DNA of 43,377 nt from a virus: positions 1 to 43,377 of IMG/VR virus record IMGVR_UViG_3300035698_002548. One strand, written 5' to 3'. Numbering within the stretch: the stretch's first letter is position 1; each line of letters starts with the position of its first letter. A model generated the notes under the pieces. The model did no database searches, was not told where the DNA came from, and worked only from the letters and a program-made list of their open reading frames with translations. Of this stretch, positions 1,794-37,565 are shown one piece after another. The position numbers were made by a program, and so were the translations under genes.

Positions 1794-2359
1794 GCGAAGT
1801 ACCTTGGATTGAAACACGCACAGGGAGGAGGGTGAATCCTCTGCACTTAGAACCTGGAGACATTGTTATCAAAGATATCGCAGGACCTTTATCCAGGATA
1901 TGCAGGTTCTCAGGACAGTGTAAGTTCATGTACACAGTTGGATACCACTCAGTAAATGTAGCCGACACTGTGGCGAAGATGATGCAAGATGACAACTCAG
2001 CAAAGGCACAGATAACATGTCTCGCTGCACTTCTACACGATGCCTCGGAAGCCTACACTAACGACATAGCCAGGCCGGTTAAGTATTACTTCCCTCCTCT
2101 GGTCGAAATGGACAAGCAGATAATTTCCACAATCCTGAAACACTTCCATTGCGAGAATGCTGACTGGGATGTGATACAAAAGGCAGATAATATATGGCTG
2201 GCAACGGAGGCCAGGTATCTCATGTGGAGTCGTGGAGCCGGATGGGACCTGCCAGAGCTTGCACTGACTCTCCCAGTTGGAATTATTTACCAGGATGAGA
2301 TTGTAGTCGAGGCCAAGTTCATGGCACGATTTGAGGAGTTTGGGGGATATAAGAGTTGA
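1790..2359 (+). CDS. HD-domain 5'-deoxynucleotidase / phosphohydrolase
   Basis: A 189-residue HD-superfamily metal-dependent phosphohydrolase. The metal ligands are visible in order: H53 in GYHSV, H83-D84 in LLHDASEAYT, E87, and D133 in KADNIW. The HDxSExxTxDxxxPVKY pattern is that of YfbR-like 5'-deoxynucleotidases, which dephosphorylate dNMPs. In a phage this would shape the nucleotide pool, for example by removing a host nucleotide or supplying deoxynucleosides. A strong GAAGGAG site precedes ATG 1790. The gene overlaps the polymerase gene at its 3' end, consistent with a shared role in DNA synthesis. The exact substrate cannot be read from sequence. Confidence 0.82.
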   Translation: MSEVPWIETRTGRRVNPLHLEPGDIVIKDIAGPLSRICRFSGQCKFMYTVGYHSVNVADTVAKMMQDDNSAKAQITCLAALLHDASEAYTNDIARPVKYYFPPLVEMDKQIISTILKHFHCENADWDVIQKADNIWLATEARYLMWSRGAGWDLPELALTLPVGIIYQDEIVVEAKFMARFEEFGGYKS

Positions 2360-4050
2360 GCGTACTTTACTTCGGCTTCGAGGATGCAGACCCAAAAGAA
2401 CGGTGGAAGTACTGGACAGAACACAGACCGTCCACAGTGACAATAGACACCGAAACCATTGATATAAATGAAAGGCATCCGTTAGGTATCGGCATTGGAT
2501 TCTCTCCTGACGAAGCGTTTTATTTTGAACTGTTTGGAGAGACTCCAGTGGCTGAACTTGAGCAGTTAAAACAGTTTATAACAGATGTCAGGATTAGAAA
2601 GGCTGCCCACAACTGGATGTTCGACATGGGAGTGTTTCCTTTAATACCAGTGATAGGTAAGTACCTCGACAGAGCCAACATATTCGACACTAACATAGCT
2701 GCGAGGTTGTTAGGCTATCAGGAGACAAAGTTATCAATCATTGCAGACGAGTTCAATAAACGCACAATACCTATGGCAGACATATGGAAACAGTATGGGT
2801 GCAAGAATAATCTACAACTGATTGAGAAGAATCCTAAAGCCTTGGCAGAACATTGTGCACTGGACTGTATGGCTACGTATACTTTATACCTTGAGTTTAA
2901 GGACAGGATTCAGAAACAGTTTGGGGAGTATTTCAAAGTAGAAATGGCGGTAATGCCTATACTCCTCGACATATCTATGCACGGGATTGCATTAGATGAG
3001 AAGGCAAGACAAGATTTGGAAGACCGCTACCAGATGGAAGTTGACGCATACCGGGCGAAGGTGCAAAGTTACGGAGTAGACAATCCAGGTAGTGCTCAGC
3101 AGGTAGGTTATATCCTGGCAAAGCGAGGAAACTTCCTGAAGTTCACAAAGTCAAAACGACAACTACGCACTAAGACCACAGACCTGGAGTTCTTAGATGA
3201 TGACATGGCGAGGGCAGTGATTCAGTATAGGAAGAAGTCTAAATTCCTATCTACTTATCTAGTGCCTCTGCGAGGTGAAGACAGATTCTACACTGAGTAC
3301 TATTTAGACACGGTGGTAGGTAGGCTGTTGAGCCGTAACAGAAACATTCAGAACATCCCAGGGGAAGATAACGAGACTGGTGACCCTGGAGCTAGGTTTA
3401 TGCTGATGCCTGACTTCGGTTGCTTTACTTCAGGGGACTACGCCAGAGAACATCTTTACATTCTCGGCAACGCAAGTCAGGATAAAAATATGCTGGAAGT
3501 TCTGTATAGCCGAGATAAGAAAAAATCAGACATTCATCAGCACACTGCTAACCTAATGAACGTACCGAGGAAGTTAGCTAAGGTGTGTAACTTCGCAGTA
3601 ATTTACGGAGCTACTGCGCAGACACTAATGGAACAGTTGAAGACTAAAGACAAGCGTAAGTGCGAGGCATTGTTAGAAGGTTGGTTCAGAGCATACCCAG
3701 GTGCTGCGGACTGGATTAAGTATGCACAACGGGTAGGTTATAGAGACGGCTGGTCTCTACCCACACTGTTTGGAAGAAGGATAAAGCTGCCGGAAGAATC
3801 AAGGGATGGGATGGAAAGGAAGGCAGTTAACTACCCTATACTTGGTAGTGATGGTGAAGTAATCAAACGGACAATTATTCTATGTAATAACAGAAGACTC
3901 GGTCCTCCCCGTATGGTGGTTACAGTACATGACAGTATCACATGGGATGGAGACGTGTTGAAAGAATTACAGCCCCTAATTCCACTGATTGAGAATGTAC
4001 CGGGGTTCAGAGTACCGTTTGAAGTAAAGCAGACCTTCAGGTGGGAATAA
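2356..4050 (+). CDS. Family A DNA polymerase with 3'-5' exonuclease domain
   Basis: A 564-residue replicative polymerase of the Pol I family without a 5'-3' exonuclease domain. Exonuclease motifs: DTET (D31, E33), D90 in HNWMFD, and D170 with H166 in place of the usual Tyr. Polymerase motifs: R323 in GRLLSR; motif A D361 in GDYAREHLY; motif B R405/K409/F413/Y417 with exact E. coli spacing; motif C HDS with D526. Unusual residues are His at the position of E. coli E710 (the steric gate), Leu for Q849 and Ser for E883. The start is TTG 2356, overlapping the TGA of the nucleotidase gene. It is presumably the phage's own replicase. The family call is secure. Confidence 0.92.
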   Translation: MSVLYFGFEDADPKERWKYWTEHRPSTVTIDTETIDINERHPLGIGIGFSPDEAFYFELFGETPVAELEQLKQFITDVRIRKAAHNWMFDMGVFPLIPVIGKYLDRANIFDTNIAARLLGYQETKLSIIADEFNKRTIPMADIWKQYGCKNNLQLIEKNPKALAEHCALDCMATYTLYLEFKDRIQKQFGEYFKVEMAVMPILLDISMHGIALDEKARQDLEDRYQMEVDAYRAKVQSYGVDNPGSAQQVGYILAKRGNFLKFTKSKRQLRTKTTDLEFLDDDMARAVIQYRKKSKFLSTYLVPLRGEDRFYTEYYLDTVVGRLLSRNRNIQNIPGEDNETGDPGARFMLMPDFGCFTSGDYAREHLYILGNASQDKNMLEVLYSRDKKKSDIHQHTANLMNVPRKLAKVCNFAVIYGATAQTLMEQLKTKDKRKCEALLEGWFRAYPGAADWIKYAQRVGYRDGWSLPTLFGRRIKLPEESRDGMERKAVNYPILGSDGEVIKRTIILCNNRRLGPPRMVVTVHDSITWDGDVLKELQPLIPLIENVPGFRVPFEVKQTFRWE

Positions 4051-14161: not shown

Positions 14162-15232
14162 CTATATGATTACTGCCACGTCATCCACGTCATACTGCCT
14201 ACCAAGGCACTGGGATGACGGGAGTATCAGGGCGCCGTAGTTGACCAGACGGATACCGCCTGCATCGTAGTCCTCCAGTTCCGGGAAACGCACCAGTTTA
14301 TAGAAGTCCCCCTGGCCCTTCGTTCCGCCATAGCAGAAGTAGATACCGGGGTTTGAACTCATCACGTCTCCGTCACCATACTTGAGTCCAAATATGGAAT
14401 AGGTCTTGTCAGTTGAATACAGAGCCCTTGCATTGGCAGACGAGCCTGTGCCAGTGGCACTCTCTTCGCCAACCAGGAAGTCAGTCCGGGTGAGAGGAAT
14501 ACCATCCCAGAAGAGGACTCTCTTGCCCAGTTCATTGTACCCCATTGAGATAAAGGCCATGCTGGTAGTGTTGGCGGCAGCCTGCAGAATACCACGCTCC
14601 TGGTAAGTGGCATCCATTCTTCGGACAATCTCGTAAGGCATCAGAAGTTCATCCACTCCGTGCTTCATGGAGTCCACCAGGACACGGAGAAGAGAAAGAC
14701 TCAACCCCACATTACCGTTGTTGATGTTCTTCGGGTCATAGGCACTTCCGGCAGTGTATGGCGTACCGTGTTCTGCCGCCAGAGCATGAAGACCGTCAAA
14801 CTGTTTGTTACTGGTGTAGGTATAATCGGCGTAGATAATCCGGGCGCCGACTCGCCTCTTCAACCCCTTCTCACACTCCAGCAGCATCCTGGCCTCGTAG
14901 TTGTTGTAGGTACCGTAGATACCCTCAACGTAGTGGTCAAGTTTGCGCTGGATATAACTGCGCCTCAGGGTCATTTCCTTCTCATCGTACTCGACATCAT
15001 CAGACCAGGACAACTGCTCGCCGATGTCAATGTCAGCTACCGCATCTTCGGTAGTTGTTTTCTCTCTCAGCCACTCGACTTTGAGACCAGTACCCGCAGC
15101 CTGGGCTACAGGAAATCTCTCCACCGGATTGACACGTTTGATGTCTTCCTCGAAGACACCGGGAACTTTCAATGACTGAGTAAGCTTTTGCGCCTCAGCC
15201 AGAGTCTTCCAATGTCCACCACTGTCAACCAT
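14162..15232 (-). CDS. Major capsid protein (HK97-fold, inferred)
   Basis: A 356-residue product placed straight after a scaffold-like gene, the usual order. Features typical of HK97-fold coat proteins are an N-terminal helical region (FEEDIKRVNPVERFPVAQ), a long basic helix (KEMTLRRSYIQRKLDHYVE), the segment KRRVGARIIYAD, and a C-terminal Pro/Gly-bounded beta part with VRFPELEDYDAGGIRLVNYGA. Codon use is strongly biased and GC-richer than its neighbours, as expected of the most abundant virion protein. The ATG at 15232 follows GGAG. The fold is not proved by sequence, but position, size and codon bias agree. Confidence 0.78.
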   Translation of the reverse strand: MVDSGGHWKTLAEAQKLTQSLKVPGVFEEDIKRVNPVERFPVAQAAGTGLKVEWLREKTTTEDAVADIDIGEQLSWSDDVEYDEKEMTLRRSYIQRKLDHYVEGIYGTYNNYEARMLLECEKGLKRRVGARIIYADYTYTSNKQFDGLHALAAEHGTPYTAGSAYDPKNINNGNVGLSLSLLRVLVDSMKHGVDELLMPYEIVRRMDATYQERGILQAAANTTSMAFISMGYNELGKRVLFWDGIPLTRTDFLVGEESATGTGSSANARALYSTDKTYSIFGLKYGDGDVMSSNPGIYFCYGGTKGQGDFYKLVRFPELEDYDAGGIRLVNYGALILPSSQCLGRQYDVDDVAVII

Positions 15233-24305: not shown

Positions 24306-26000
24306 CTATTTGCCCCAGTCATCGTCCCATCCTCCGTCATCCCCAGTGTTGCCTGCATAACCTATTGCGACAGACTGTGCAAATCTACAGCATACTGCAA
24401 TCACTCCTGCGTCATGGTGGTCATCTGCTCCAACTACCGATATTCCATACTTCTTCGTAGGGTCTCTACGGATGTTCTTGCACTGAGACCAGAATCTATC
24501 ATCATTACATTCTATGTCTTCCATGTGGCGGTTAAGTTCTGTCAGCATATAAGGCTTAGTAGATGTGTTAGTCTGCCAACCGACAGACCTGACTGACTTA
24601 CCACTACGAACATCTTCACGGTAGTAGAGACTTGGATACCCTCGCAGATGGCTTACTATGTCTAAGTTATCTTCTGGACACGCCACCGCATCATTATAGT
24701 ACTTACCAAACTCTTTACAGTACTCCGCCATTTCCCACTCGTCATACCAGCCTGATAAAGTAGCATCGTGACGAAGTACTGGCGGTATGTCATTGTTATC
24801 CTTATCAGTGAAGCCATCTTCAAAGTGCCAGATATGGCCTACAGATTCTGACGCCTTTCCCTTCCCAGGGTCTATGCTCATGACGTAAGGAAGACCTTTC
24901 TCAACGTCTCTCCATATCTGAGCGTCAACACTTACTCCAGTCTTCTTGTTAATGAAAGGACGAGTTATCGGGGCAGGATAGCATGTTCGGAGTTTCTGGC
25001 TAATAATGTCTGTCGAGTATGCTTGGTTTCCCGCAGTGATAAAGCATGACTCGTCATCTTCAGGATACTCCTGATTGAACATAAATATCGTTGCACCTGT
25101 ACGTTGCAGAGACTTCATTTCGGCCTGCTTGTACCTTCTCCAACGAAGTTTCGCCATAGATAGTTTTGTACCCCAGTTGAAGTCACTGATAAACTTCTTC
25201 ATTAGAAGTTGCTCCTCAGCATCCAAGTTGGGCAGGGGGTCTACAGCGTCAGCAGTAAGACAGAATGGGTCGTCAACGTACATGACGTATTCTGGATGGA
25301 AGAACCAGGGGTAAAAGTGAGGCCTGTATACAGATTCAATGCCTCCTGCCCCGATACGTTGTCCTTCTTTTGCAGTACAATACATTTCACAGAATGGGTT
25401 ATCTTCACCATTTGCAGTGCTGCCAATCCGAATCTTAGTTCCTGCCTTCAATGGAACTCGTTGGACGGCAGAGGCAAATACAAGTTCGTGGGTTCCTATT
25501 GGCCAGAACGCATACTCATCGAGGAGTAGGTTGTGAATAGTCTCGCCCCTACCCAACATGTAACTCTGGCTGCTGAATATGTAGAAAGTACTATAAAACC
25601 CAGTAGCTTTGTCAACAAAACTTAATTCAGATGCAGACTTATGGTCAAGTTTGGGAATCGAAGGAATCTTGCGCTCTAGAGACTGATGATACTTTTTGGC
25701 CTTCATCAACAGTCTCTTTGCGCTAAACTCATCATAGCTGATGATTACTGACACAGTTCCATTGATAGTGATGTTGTCTATAATGAAGTCACCGGCAACA
25801 CAGGCAGTAAAACCAACTTGCCCAGGCTTGACATAGATGTCTCTTAAACTGCTATGCTGAATGATGTCAGTCTGAATCGGATTGAGCTTCATAGGAATCA
25901 ACTGACGTTCCTTGTTCTCAATCTCCAGCAAGGTTTCCATAGTTATTTTGCGGTCTGAGAATAGCTTCCTCAGCGCATCTTCTTGTACTGCAGTTGCCAT
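24306..26000 (-). CDS. Terminase large subunit
   Basis: A 564-residue packaging motor. The ATPase part shows the Q motif (PIQTDI, 41-46), a lambda gpA-type deviant Walker A KPGQVGFT (58-65, the lysine at the first position instead of before the final Thr), Walker B LLLDEYAF with D161/E162, and motif III GSTANGED (193-200). QEYPEDDE (310-317) leads into the nuclease part, with D377 in SIDPGKGKASE, E443, and the acidic group ADDHHD at about 525-530, consistent with the RNase H-like headful or cos nuclease. It lies in the standard position before the portal. Confidence 0.92.
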   Translation of the reverse strand: MATAVQEDALRKLFSDRKITMETLLEIENKERQLIPMKLNPIQTDIIQHSSLRDIYVKPGQVGFTACVAGDFIIDNITINGTVSVIISYDEFSAKRLLMKAKKYHQSLERKIPSIPKLDHKSASELSFVDKATGFYSTFYIFSSQSYMLGRGETIHNLLLDEYAFWPIGTHELVFASAVQRVPLKAGTKIRIGSTANGEDNPFCEMYCTAKEGQRIGAGGIESVYRPHFYPWFFHPEYVMYVDDPFCLTADAVDPLPNLDAEEQLLMKKFISDFNWGTKLSMAKLRWRRYKQAEMKSLQRTGATIFMFNQEYPEDDESCFITAGNQAYSTDIISQKLRTCYPAPITRPFINKKTGVSVDAQIWRDVEKGLPYVMSIDPGKGKASESVGHIWHFEDGFTDKDNNDIPPVLRHDATLSGWYDEWEMAEYCKEFGKYYNDAVACPEDNLDIVSHLRGYPSLYYREDVRSGKSVRSVGWQTNTSTKPYMLTELNRHMEDIECNDDRFWSQCKNIRRDPTKKYGISVVGADDHHDAGVIAVCCRFAQSVAIGYAGNTGDDGGWDDDWGK

Positions 26001-27064: not shown

Positions 27065-27094
27065 TTGACACCTCCATTCCAAAGATGTTATAAT
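27065..27094 (+). promoter_or_regulatory. Rightward sigma70 promoter of the early accessory operon
   Basis: A consensus TTGACA (27065-27070), an 18-bp spacer and TATAAT (27089-27094). The first ATG of the next gene is at 27100, at or next to the predicted start of transcription, so the mRNA may be leaderless. It is divergent to the late promoter. Confidence 0.8.
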
Positions 27095-28838: not shown

Positions 28839-28962
28839 CATTTCCCCAGATTGAGAATTTTGCACAGACCAGATAATAGATGAATGGCAGTGTAAAGATG
28901 GGAGGCCGTACCCCATACTTTATGTCAACCTGACTACCCCCTGCCCTGTCTCCAGCCAGACG

Positions 28963-29072
28963 TAGAACAATTGTTCGCAGAACATTAGTGCTATGCCTGG
29001 ACACTAGCATATAGTAGAACACTTGTGCTAGCCTCCCACATGATAGCCAATAGAACACCTGTTCGTAGAACT
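28963..29072. promoter_or_regulatory. Three SOS-box-like palindromes (GAACN4GTTC)
   Basis: Perfect boxes GAACAATTGTTC at 28965-28976 and GAACACCTGTTC at 29053-29064, with a one-mismatch box (GAACACTTGTGC) at 29017-29028. The first and third are each preceded by TA and followed by GYAGAAC, giving two copies of a longer composite element. GAACN4GTTC is the known operator core of the LexA type found in Gram-positive bacteria. The spacing is about 5 and 3.4 helical turns. Confidence 0.6.
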
Positions 29073-29078
29073 TATGCA

Positions 29079-29159
29079 GTAACAGTCACGCTCATATCTT
29101 CGTTACTAAACTGTTACCGTTCTGTTACTTCCGAGCCTGTTCTGTAACCTCGCTGTAAC
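29079..29159. repeat. Phased GTWAC direct repeats
   Basis: GTWAC occurs at 29079, 29102, 29113, 29124, 29144 and 29155. Within the run the steps are 11, 11, 20 and 11 bases, so sites face one side of the helix. Two pairs of longer repeats are visible, CTGTTAC (29111, 29122) and CTGTAAC (29142, 29153). They end about 10 bases before the TATAAT box and cover the weak -35 region, which suits an activator-controlled promoter or an iteron-type origin. Confidence 0.6.
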
Positions 29160-29169
29160 CTCATTGCTG

Positions 29170-29175
29170 TATAAT
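29170..29175 (+). promoter_or_regulatory. -10 box with poor -35, downstream of the phased repeats
   Basis: TATAAT lies at 29170-29175. The correctly spaced -35 (about 29147-29152) does not match TTGACA. Activity may therefore depend on a protein bound to the GTWAC repeats. It points rightward, into the hairpin-rich leader and the small gene at 29359. Confidence 0.5.
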
Positions 29176-29228
29176 GAGACTACACAAGGAAAACAGGATA
29201 CGGAGGTGACAGCACCGGAGCATTACAA

Positions 29229-29313
29229 GCGAGACGCTCGCACTGGTCACAGACCAGACTACAAATAGTCAGGATTACTTGTCGATACCGGACATGCCAA
29301 CCTTCATCAAGTT
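29229..29313 (+). ncRNA. Candidate structured leader or small RNA: tandem hairpins
   Basis: Three adjacent perfect hairpins: GCGAG-ACG-CTCGC (29229-29241), CTGGTC-ACA-GACCAG (29243-29257) and GACTA-CAAA-TAGTC (29257-29270), the last two sharing one base. A fourth, CCAAC/GTTGG extended by TT/AA with one bulged C, follows at about 29299-29317. They lie between the -10 box at 29170 and the ATG at 29359. A structured 5' leader or a separate small RNA is possible. No known riboswitch motif was recognised. Confidence 0.5.
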
Positions 29314-29358
29314 GGGATACTGACTCATACGATGTGTGGACTGCTGGGAGGTGTTAAT

Positions 29359-29523
29359 ATGTATACAATTATTGACCAGACAGTCTTTGGTGAGTTCAAT
29401 CGTTATAAGGTAACACTAGCAATAGACCGATTTGGTAAGTGGTGTTGTCTTGTGGAAGATGCGGAACTCACTGACGAACTGACACAACTACCATCTGTCA
29501 TTGCACAGGTTACGCAGGCTTAA
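29359..29523 (+). CDS. Small hypothetical protein
   Basis: A 54-residue product with GGGAGG seven bases before ATG 29359. It has a beta-like start (YTIIDQTVFGEFNRYKVTL) and an acidic C-terminus with CCLVEDAEL. It is the first gene after the structured leader and stands alone before a further promoter, so it may be regulated separately. A longer upstream frame exists but starts inside the leader and lacks a ribosome-binding site. Confidence 0.6.
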   Translation: MYTIIDQTVFGEFNRYKVTLAIDRFGKWCCLVEDAELTDELTQLPSVIAQVTQA

Positions 29524-29577
29524 CGCCTGCCACCAGTCCACACATTAAGGCTAAGCAACTCAGCTATAGCACTGCCC

Positions 29578-29607
29578 TTGACATCTGCCCCCCTGTTATG
29601 TTATAAT
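29578..29607 (+). promoter_or_regulatory. Sigma70 promoter for the 29639 gene
   Basis: TTGACA (29578-29583), an 18-bp spacer and TATAAT (29602-29607), then a short leader with AGGAGG before ATG 29639. It drives a gene with strongly biased codons, so high output is expected. Confidence 0.8.
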
Positions 29608-29638: not shown

Positions 29639-30217
29639 ATGGCAGATGACAAAACCCCTGTAACTCCCGTAGTGGGAACAACCATAGCGAACGCAGTAAA
29701 TGCTGTGGAGGAGAAGCCAAAGACTGAAACCGAACTCATGGCCGACATGAACAAGGCGGTAGCTTCTGGCGATTATAAAGCAGTCGCCAAGGTAGCTATG
29801 GAACTGGTTAAATTCCAGAAGGCTAAGGAAGCTACCGAACTGGAAGCCAAGCTGAAAGTGCTGGAAGCCAAGACCGAGGTTGTTAAGAAAACAATCGGTG
29901 CGGCTCTTGCCAAGCTGGTCGAGTCCGGAGAACTGGATGCCGCAGATGGTATCTGGTATGTCAATGACTTCGGGGAGAAGCTGGTCACATGCAGGCTTGT
30001 TAAGGTTGCAGTCAGGACCAACAAAGCCTCGACAACCACAGGTGGCGGAGGTGGGAAGAAATACACTGTGTCCACGAACGACTTGCTTGCCAAGTTCGGT
30101 GAGGTCGAGTACAAAGATGGCGCATCATTCCAGGCTGCGTACGACTCCAACACTGACAAGAACTGGAGGTATGGTATCCGAGAAGCCTTGCTGAAGAAAG
30201 GCGGATACATAAGCTAA
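29639..30217 (+). CDS. Abundantly expressed hypothetical protein, coiled coil plus C-terminal domain
   Basis: A 192-residue product with its own promoter, a strong AGGAGG and a terminator after it, so it is a free-standing transcription unit. Residues about 30-90 form an Ala/Glu/Lys coiled coil (MADMNKAVASGDYKAVAKVA, KLKVLEAKTEVVKKTIGAALAK). A Gly-rich linker (TTTGGGGGKK) leads to a small C-terminal domain (STNDLLAKFGEVEYKDGASF, NWRYGIREALLKKGGYI). Codons favour CTG, AAG, GAC and GCC more than the neighbours do, as in the capsid gene. Function is unknown; an abundant early nucleoid-like or host-directed protein is possible. Confidence 0.65.
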   Translation: MADDKTPVTPVVGTTIANAVNAVEEKPKTETELMADMNKAVASGDYKAVAKVAMELVKFQKAKEATELEAKLKVLEAKTEVVKKTIGAALAKLVESGELDAADGIWYVNDFGEKLVTCRLVKVAVRTNKASTTTGGGGGKKYTVSTNDLLAKFGEVEYKDGASFQAAYDSNTDKNWRYGIREALLKKGGYIS

Positions 30218-30258
30218 CCTATTCAGAAGGCAGGGAGGCAGAAGTCAAAGGCAGTAGA

Positions 30259-30300
30259 GCGGGGTTGCTCAGTTAGTGGGCGACCTCGCTTTATCTTTGT
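30259..30300 (+). terminator. Rho-independent terminator
   Basis: A 12-bp stem, GCGGGGTTGCTC (30259-30270) with GGGCGACCTCGC (30278-30289), including three G-U pairs, a 7-nt loop, then TTTATCTTTGTTT. It lies 40 bases after the stop of the 192-residue gene and is the clearest intrinsic terminator in the window. Confidence 0.85.
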
Positions 30301-30331: not shown

Positions 30332-30403
30332 GGCTGGCTAGCTTCGGATATTGGCTGAGCGGCGGCTGGCAGTTGACAAGCGCAACAGAAGGGAGGTATA
30401 GTT

Positions 30404-30574: not shown

Positions 30575-30604
30575 TTGACAACGGCAACACAAAGATGGTA
30601 TAAT
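30575..30604 (+). promoter_or_regulatory. Sigma70 promoter for the 30637 operon
   Basis: TTGACA (30575-30580), an 18-bp spacer and TATAAT (30599-30604), followed by a 32-base leader with TGGAGG before ATG 30637. It should start the run of small genes from 30637 rightward. Confidence 0.8.
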
Positions 30605-36533: not shown

Positions 36534-37565
36534 ATGAAAAAAGGAGTTAAGTATGCCAAGCCCGTTACAACAAATACTGAACAAGTAGGAGGCCATATCT
36601 TGCCAAGCGACATCAATAAAGTTGACCGTAGTTTATTCACTATTGACGACTTGCAAAAGTGGACTCCTCCTCCTAATCGCCATATAGTATGGGGTGGAGT
36701 TCTAGACGTAGGCCACAGGTTTCAAATATTTGGAGACGAAGGCTCTTGGAAGTCAATGCTCGCTCTCCACATGGCTTACTGCATCGCAACTGGTCGAAAG
36801 TGGTTAGGCTTCAAAACCTCTCCAGCCAATGTTATCTACATCCAAGGCGAAATGGGCAAGTCGTCTGTGAGAACTAGAAGCATAAAGTATTGTGAAGGCA
36901 CACGCCGGATATATCTTGCTCGGCCTGGTGATGTGCCGAATGAGTTGGAAAGAGCAGAAGCCATATCCTATCCTACCAATGTCATTACTCACATTACTGA
37001 GTTCTTCCATCTAGACGAGCAAGCAGGCATAGCGGCCTTGCGTAAGATAGTAGATACTGTCATCATGAACTACAATGACTTGCCTATTGTGGTAATAGTT
37101 GACCCTCTCTACAAAGTATTTCATCATGACTTGACTGTTGGCAAGGAAGTTAATTACTTCTGTGAGAACATAGATGTCATGCTACACGACTACAATGAAC
37201 CTCGAAATGGGGTGTCTCGTAACATGGCCTTTGTATTTATCCACCACTCTCGTAAGGCCGGGGTTGATAAAGAAGGACACAGAACTCACCAAGGGTCTGA
37301 AGATTCCTTCGGTGCAAAGCAGATATCCTGGTGGTCAGATGCAATACTAAATTCTTCCCTTGATGAAGACGATGAAACCAAAACTACCATGAACCTTACA
37401 TTCTCCAAGCAAGGCCGAGACGCAGAAAACGCATTGCCAAAGCTGATACAACTCCAATGGCATCGGGATACTCTCCATCCTTTAATATCCAAACGGTACA
37501 TGCCATCACTACCTGAAGACGCTCTGGAGATACGTAGTGAGTTAGACATATCTCAACTTGAGTAA
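36534..37565 (+). CDS. RepA-like (AAA_25) RecA-fold ATPase
   Basis: A 343-residue P-loop ATPase. Walker A is GDEGSWKS (67-74), Walker B VVIVDP (D190), and a later IHHSRKAG (about 240) and GAKQISWWSDAIL fit the sensor and hexamer elements of RepA/AAA_25-type helicases or helicase loaders. It probably opens or loads DNA for the phage polymerase. If it starts at ATG 36534 the mRNA is nearly leaderless. An in-frame TTG at 36600 has AGGAGG at good spacing and could be the actual start, shortening the protein by 22 residues. It has a dedicated promoter. Confidence 0.8.
   Translation: MKKGVKYAKPVTTNTEQVGGHILPSDINKVDRSLFTIDDLQKWTPPPNRHIVWGGVLDVGHRFQIFGDEGSWKSMLALHMAYCIATGRKWLGFKTSPANVIYIQGEMGKSSVRTRSIKYCEGTRRIYLARPGDVPNELERAEAISYPTNVITHITEFFHLDEQAGIAALRKIVDTVIMNYNDLPIVVIVDPLYKVFHHDLTVGKEVNYFCENIDVMLHDYNEPRNGVSRNMAFVFIHHSRKAGVDKEGHRTHQGSEDSFGAKQISWWSDAILNSSLDEDDETKTTMNLTFSKQGRDAENALPKLIQLQWHRDTLHPLISKRYMPSLPEDALEIRSELDISQLE

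Follow-up and report, generated by a model that had tools for sequence, protein, structure and literature searches.

Tandem hairpins in the early leader of an uncultured phage, possibly a derived form of a leader RNA whose loop is complementary to a downstream terminator loop in related phages

The stretch of DNA analyzed here, hereafter the window, is a complete virus record of 43,377 bases. Its leftward genes include those of the major head protein (14162-15232) and the large terminase subunit (24306-26000; 564 amino acids, with remote matches to annotated terminases), a DNA polymerase gene lies at 2356-4050, and the rightward genes, among them one for a primase/helicase-like AAA protein (36534-37565), begin at about 27.1 kb. 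Matches of the terminase and the DNA polymerase to annotated phages are remote only, and a DNA search of annotated phages with the window returned no match. The whole window was searched for tRNAs and Rfam RNAs, and none were found. One contig (L085, IMGVR_UViG_3300031227_000568) derives from a near-identical phage, its terminase fragment being 100% identical to that of the window over 382 residues; the leader discussed below lies outside the end of that contig.

The region of interest is the apparent 5′ leader of an early rightward transcript (29182-29358, + strand), which would start at a presumed promoter with the −10 box TATAAT at 29170-29175 and no TTGACA at −35. Directly upstream of this box, at about 29114-29160, are CTGTTAC/CTGTAAC direct repeats spaced 10-11 nt apart, about one helical turn, which are possible activator sites. 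Further upstream, at 28960-29075, we observed a cluster of AGAACA-N2-TGTTCT / GAACATATGTGCT dyads; similar clusters precede the early leader in L043, L056 and L058, and by their sequence they resemble Gram-positive LexA-type or phage repressor operators. The leader is followed on the same strand by a small ORF of 54 amino acids (29359-29523), a second promoter (TTGACA-18-TATAAT, 29578-29607), the gene of a 192-amino-acid early protein (29639-30217) and an intrinsic terminator (30254-30294) with the loop GTTAG. The 192-amino-acid protein is conserved in the clade and its gene served as the anchor for comparing leaders; fold and family searches gave no credible match for it, nor did the search of annotated phages. 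The rightward strand carries two further perfect TTGACA-18-TATAAT promoters, at 27065-27094 and 30575-30604, and a fourth site one base off this sequence at 30373-30402, all four with an 18-base spacer.

The preliminary description had reported a run of perfect hairpins between a −10 box and the next gene, and this is borne out by the sequence. Three hairpins directly follow one another at 29229-29270: H1 (GCGAG-ACG-CTCGC, 29229-29241; 5 bp, loop ACG), H2 (CTGGTC-ACA-GACCAG, 29243-29257; 6 bp, loop ACA) and H3 (GACTA-CAAA-TAGTC, 29257-29270). G29257 is common to H2 and H3, and without it H3 is a 4-bp ACTA/TAGT stem at 29258-29269. A fourth hairpin, H4 (CCAAC-CTTCATCAA-GTTGG), follows at 29297-29315. 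All four are on the + strand, at least 54 nt downstream of the −10 box, and precede the ATG at 29359. None is followed by a T-tract and the leader contains no terminator-like site, in line with the earlier view that they are not terminators; likewise, Rfam covariance models gave nothing above the gathering threshold for the window, in agreement with the absence of a recognizable riboswitch.

To judge how unusual the run is, we defined it as a stretch of no more than 45 nt with three perfect hairpins, each having a stem of 4 bp or more and a loop of 3-5 nt, separated by gaps of at most 2 nt and together comprising at least 14 bp. A script run over the 43 kb found one run that fits this definition, H1-H3, and 60 dinucleotide shuffles of the window gave 0.22 on average, so that the run is unusual for a short leader and not astonishing for a 43-kb search. 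The fold of the 51-nt core has a z score of −3.64, with 0/200 shuffles as good, that of a 96-nt segment has a z score of −2.0 (10/200 shuffles as good), and the whole leader folds as an ordinary sequence does (z −0.88 and −0.57). The hairpin run is thus locally striking and mildly improbable for a whole-genome search. Perfect dyads close to a promoter could also be DNA operators for phage regulators acting downstream of it, and the many GAACA-N2-TGTTC-like dyads at 28960-29075 are typical of repressor sites. However, the three dyads of the run have no sequence in common, unlike the repeated sites of one regulator, and none of them recurs elsewhere in the window, and we regard operators as very improbable here.

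The hairpins are followed by an inverted repeat, whose 5′ arm (29332-29357) includes GGGAGGTG, the Shine-Dalgarno sequence for the small ORF, and whose 3′ arm (29520-29545) can pair with it at about 24 of 26 positions. The ORF is the variable content of this arrangement; the one relative found for its product is encoded in L009 (51% identity over 41 residues). The inverted repeat, TGGACTGCTGGGAGGTG...GCCTGCCAGCAGTCCA, surrounds unrelated small ORFs in at least five phages (the window, L041, L021, L047 and L049), and its outer arm bases vary between phages yet stay complementary. A search with the 3′ arm yielded mostly unrelated contigs among the matches listed. Judged from these sequences, the inverted repeat and its ORF look like an exchangeable cassette, the start of which could be masked by pairing with the cassette's own 3′ end.

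Within the leader there is also a possible coding frame of 20 codons with a GTG start (VTAPEHYKRDARTGHRPDYK, 29206-29268), which spans H1 and H2 and ends inside H3, and an alternative stem, 29267-29275 with 29317-29325 (AGTCAGGAT/ATACTGACT), which includes the 3′ arm of H3. These suggest an attenuator, in which translation of the peptide through H1 and H2 up to its stop in H3 would toggle H3 against the long stem and so change access to the small ORF. The frame is open and has AGGA 7 nt upstream of the GTG, H3 and the long stem are mutually exclusive, the long inverted repeat surrounds the small ORF in at least five phages, and L041 has a GGAGG and a 4-codon ORF (MTYR) at the matching place. 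Against this, the peptide is not conserved, begins with GTG and is known from one sequence, and the inverted repeat by itself would already mask the Shine-Dalgarno sequence. We therefore consider translational attenuation unlikely.

We collected relatives with the 192-amino-acid protein (29639-30217), and others via the terminase. Among those in which the leader is covered, the closest are L041 (69% identity in the 192-amino-acid protein) and L082/L222 (66%). Neither these nor any other related locus contains H1, H2, H3 or H4; an exact match to H1 was found only in L120, an unrelated contig, and H2 alone is weakly similar to a hairpin in the leaders of relatives. The leaders of the window and L041 share only TACGGAGGTGACAGCA / TATGGAGGTTACAGCA, and an Rfam search of 16 related loci returned one tRNA and nothing else. 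H1-H4 are not a conserved RNA family by this comparison: the position of the leader is conserved across the clade and the hairpins of the window are not. There is thus no support for a new RNA family made up of these hairpins, and when relatives are checked for loss of the pairing, as the preliminary description had proposed, the claim about H1-H4 either fails or, at best, lacks homologues in which covariation could be assessed. A separate small RNA, which it had also suggested, would fit the compact hairpins and the −10 box upstream; yet no terminator follows the hairpins, a gene in the same direction starts 89 nt later and there is no conservation, and of the readings weighed here we find this one the least probable.

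The same leader in relatives does hold a conserved element. Upstream of the 192-amino-acid gene, the leaders of 29 related phage contigs share a hairpin whose stem covaries and whose loop, AGYGGYAAC, in most relatives reads AGTGGTAAC, AGCGGCAAC or a close variant. The stem sequences differ completely between phages and the pairing is kept: 97.6% of 125 cells were paired and the covariation score was 1.30 vs 0.24 in shuffles, measured on trimmed sequences in which the five pairs next to the loop were picked by eye and the variable linkers were left out. The covariance model that we built was sequence-only and did not score the stem, which was tested separately. In most of these relatives a boxA-like sequence, GCACTTTAACAA / CAGCACTTTAACAANNGAATA, lies downstream of the hairpin; GCACTTTAACAA is one base off the E. 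coli rrn boxA core, GCTCTTTAACA. Across 2.9 million viral contigs the combined loop and boxA pattern was matched by no more than 16 stretches, and those examined belong to this clade. A motif scan of genomes gave a single match, in Crenothrix, which has no promoter or terminator context and is probably due to chance. The inverted-repeat arm that comes after the hairpins of the window is also present in L047 and L049, where the conserved hairpin and boxA stand between it and the promoter. Two loci carry a second leader, in which the boxA-like ACATTAACAATTGAATA stands straight after the promoter and the conserved hairpin is missing (L042:3478-3498, L048:3381-3401). The leader hairpin of the relatives is an RNA element absent from Rfam and apparently undescribed. 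The suggestion of a new cis-acting leader RNA at this place therefore held for the relatives' leader; H1-H4 are not that element.

Several of these leaders have a further hairpin just before the conserved one, and for this reason the density of tandem hairpins in the clade's leaders (9 in 6 kb) is about 11 times that elsewhere in these loci (22 in 166 kb), with leader intervals that were set by hand. Many of the relatives' leaders also fold far better than their shuffles (z down to −5.5).

Directly after the 192-amino-acid gene, 0.6-1.5 kb from the leader, the relatives have a terminator hairpin with the loop GTTACC(A/G), GTTGCC(A/G) or a variant, and this loop is complementary to the leader loop. 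Across the 29 phages 174/174 core positions can pair, 160 of them as Watson-Crick pairs, compared with 169.9 in permutations (p 6e-5; p 0.00018 when identical leader/terminator combinations were collapsed to 13), although the phages are related and these values are consequently not strict probabilities. At the variable position of the core we observed C-G, U-A and U-G and never a leader C with a terminator A, as expected for RNA pairing; at a seventh position, beyond the six core bases, 3 of the 29 phages have a mismatch. Compensatory changes are seen in L084 (TGACAAC/GTTGTCA) and L082 (CGACAAC/GTTGTCA), where both sides have changed (GAC/GUC). Two phages examined after the hypothesis had been formed fit too: in L223 a new leader loop, ATAGGCAAC, is matched by the terminator sequence GTTGCCTAT over 9 bp, and the loop pair of L021 is also complementary. 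A loop of the GTTRCC type was found in 24/47 terminator-like sites of the same loci and was absent from the other 23; all 24 belong to the terminator after the 192-amino-acid gene or, in loci fetched by the motif, to the first terminator after the leader. Downstream of this terminator come the next promoter and then further early genes, which read-through would therefore feed.

Both halves of this pair have been lost in the window and in L041, its closest relative with a visible leader. The sequence-only model of the conserved element has no match in either, the window has no site within 3 mismatches of the boxA-like GCACNTTAACAA, and its terminator loop after the 192-amino-acid gene lacks GTTRCC, the motif of the relatives. 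Complementarity between the leader and its own terminator loop is no better than in shuffles, in the window as in L041; an 8-base candidate, TACTGACT at 29318-29325, was dropped, being at chance level and inside a stem.

A trace of the element may nonetheless persist in H2. The segment 29242-29257 has 2 mismatches to AGTGGTAACAGNCCAG; no other site in the window comes within 3, and chance alone would give 1.5 sites within that limit somewhere in the window. Scored against a profile of the conserved hairpin, H2 ranks 12 of 86,724 sites, with 0.019 sites of this rank expected in the leader, and 3.1% of shuffled leaders reach its score. It is identical to L055 at 13/14 positions, and its place between the promoter and the inverted-repeat arm is that of the conserved hairpin in L047 and L049. 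Through the two bases that differ, the former loop can pair with the 3′ arm of its own hairpin. H2 may accordingly be a derived copy of the relatives' leader hairpin, the similarity being weak and its p value (about 0.02-0.03) post hoc.

We favor, at a probability of roughly 0.4, the reading that the hairpin run is the phage's own derived cis-acting leader RNA, 29182-29358 being the 5′ leader of an early rightward transcript: the clade would keep its leader RNA in another form, of which the run in the window would be the derived version. The main rival, which we consider nearly as probable, is that the run has no function of its own, having arisen by chance or being a neutral remnant of a leader in decay since its loss of the conserved element. 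This reading would account for the 0.22 runs expected per shuffled window, the whole-leader z scores near −0.6 to −0.9, the absence of the hairpins from all relatives and the loss of both the conserved element and the terminator motif in the window and L041. It is less easily reconciled with the local fold (z −3.64, 0/200 shuffles) or with the roughly 11-fold density of tandem hairpins in the clade's leaders, which suggests that this place favors such structure.

Under the favored reading of a derived leader RNA, the events in the relatives would run as follows. The leader loop AGYGGYAAC would pair with the terminator loop that comes after the next conserved gene. In most phages the boxA-like sequence after the hairpin, presumably through NusB binding, would keep the leader near RNA polymerase. 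The likely outcome is control of stopping versus read-through at the terminator, and hence of the flow into the early operon, although sequence alone cannot tell whether termination is hindered or promoted by the loop pairing, or whether the pairing serves to protect message ends. In the window the changed loop bases would close H2 on itself and the terminator loop has no partner sequence; with the leader loop changed and its terminator partner lost, the contact is probably gone. The hairpins would then act, if at all, locally, in leader folding, 5′ protection or spacing before the sequestered Shine-Dalgarno sequence. The complete scheme, in which a boxA-tethered leader hairpin kisses the terminator loop and so decides read-through into the early operon across the clade, and the window represents the state after its loss or remodelling with H1-H3 as derived hairpins, is a tentative proposal that we hold to be somewhat doubtful. 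H1-H4 alone would be a single-genome curiosity. The comparison that they prompted is more valuable, since it points to a compact RNA element across an uncultured phage clade, whose loop covaries with that of one particular terminator.

We know of no phage mRNA in which direct pairing of a leader loop with a terminator loop steers an intrinsic terminator, and a limited literature search found none. A close parallel in gene order is phage lambda, whose early genes are arranged as PL-nutL-N-tL1 and whose nut site, with boxA and boxB, serves antitermination by N bound to the hairpin together with Nus factors. Like nutL/N/tL1, the relatives have an early promoter, a hairpin with a boxA-like sequence, one protein gene, an intrinsic terminator and further early genes. 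They differ in that the hairpin mostly precedes boxA, that the loop pairs with the terminator and that no N homologue was recognized, the 192-amino-acid protein having no recognizable relation to N or any known fold. With boxA and a boxB in the leader they have a nut site of the lambda type in a loose sense only, and the window has neither boxA nor the loop. A leader RNA that brings about antitermination without a phage protein is the put RNA of HK022, two stem-loops of about 70 nt in all, just downstream of an early phage promoter, whose bulged stems bind the zinc-binding domain of RNA polymerase (PMC9378689). By that description the window differs, with three small perfect stems in place of the bulged ones; H1 and H2 are one base apart and start 54 nt after the −10 box. 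In the LoaP-dependent dfn leader, read-through at an intrinsic terminator is governed by a small hairpin that precedes it; the UNCG-type loop of this hairpin is bound by LoaP, and the parts of that account available to us describe no complementarity to the terminator loop (PMC12691694). The rrn operons, with their antitermination elements in the order boxB-boxA-boxC, also place a hairpin before boxA, and in the published model of the leader-trailer helix the leader is tethered through boxA and meets the downstream RNA when that RNA emerges from RNA polymerase (PMC10250234). In the relatives the RNA would be a phage mRNA and not rRNA, and the contact would be a loop-loop one of 6-9 bp with a terminator. 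It is because their order of hairpin and boxA resembles that of rrn leaders (PMC10250234) that we favor control of the terminator by the leader in these phages.
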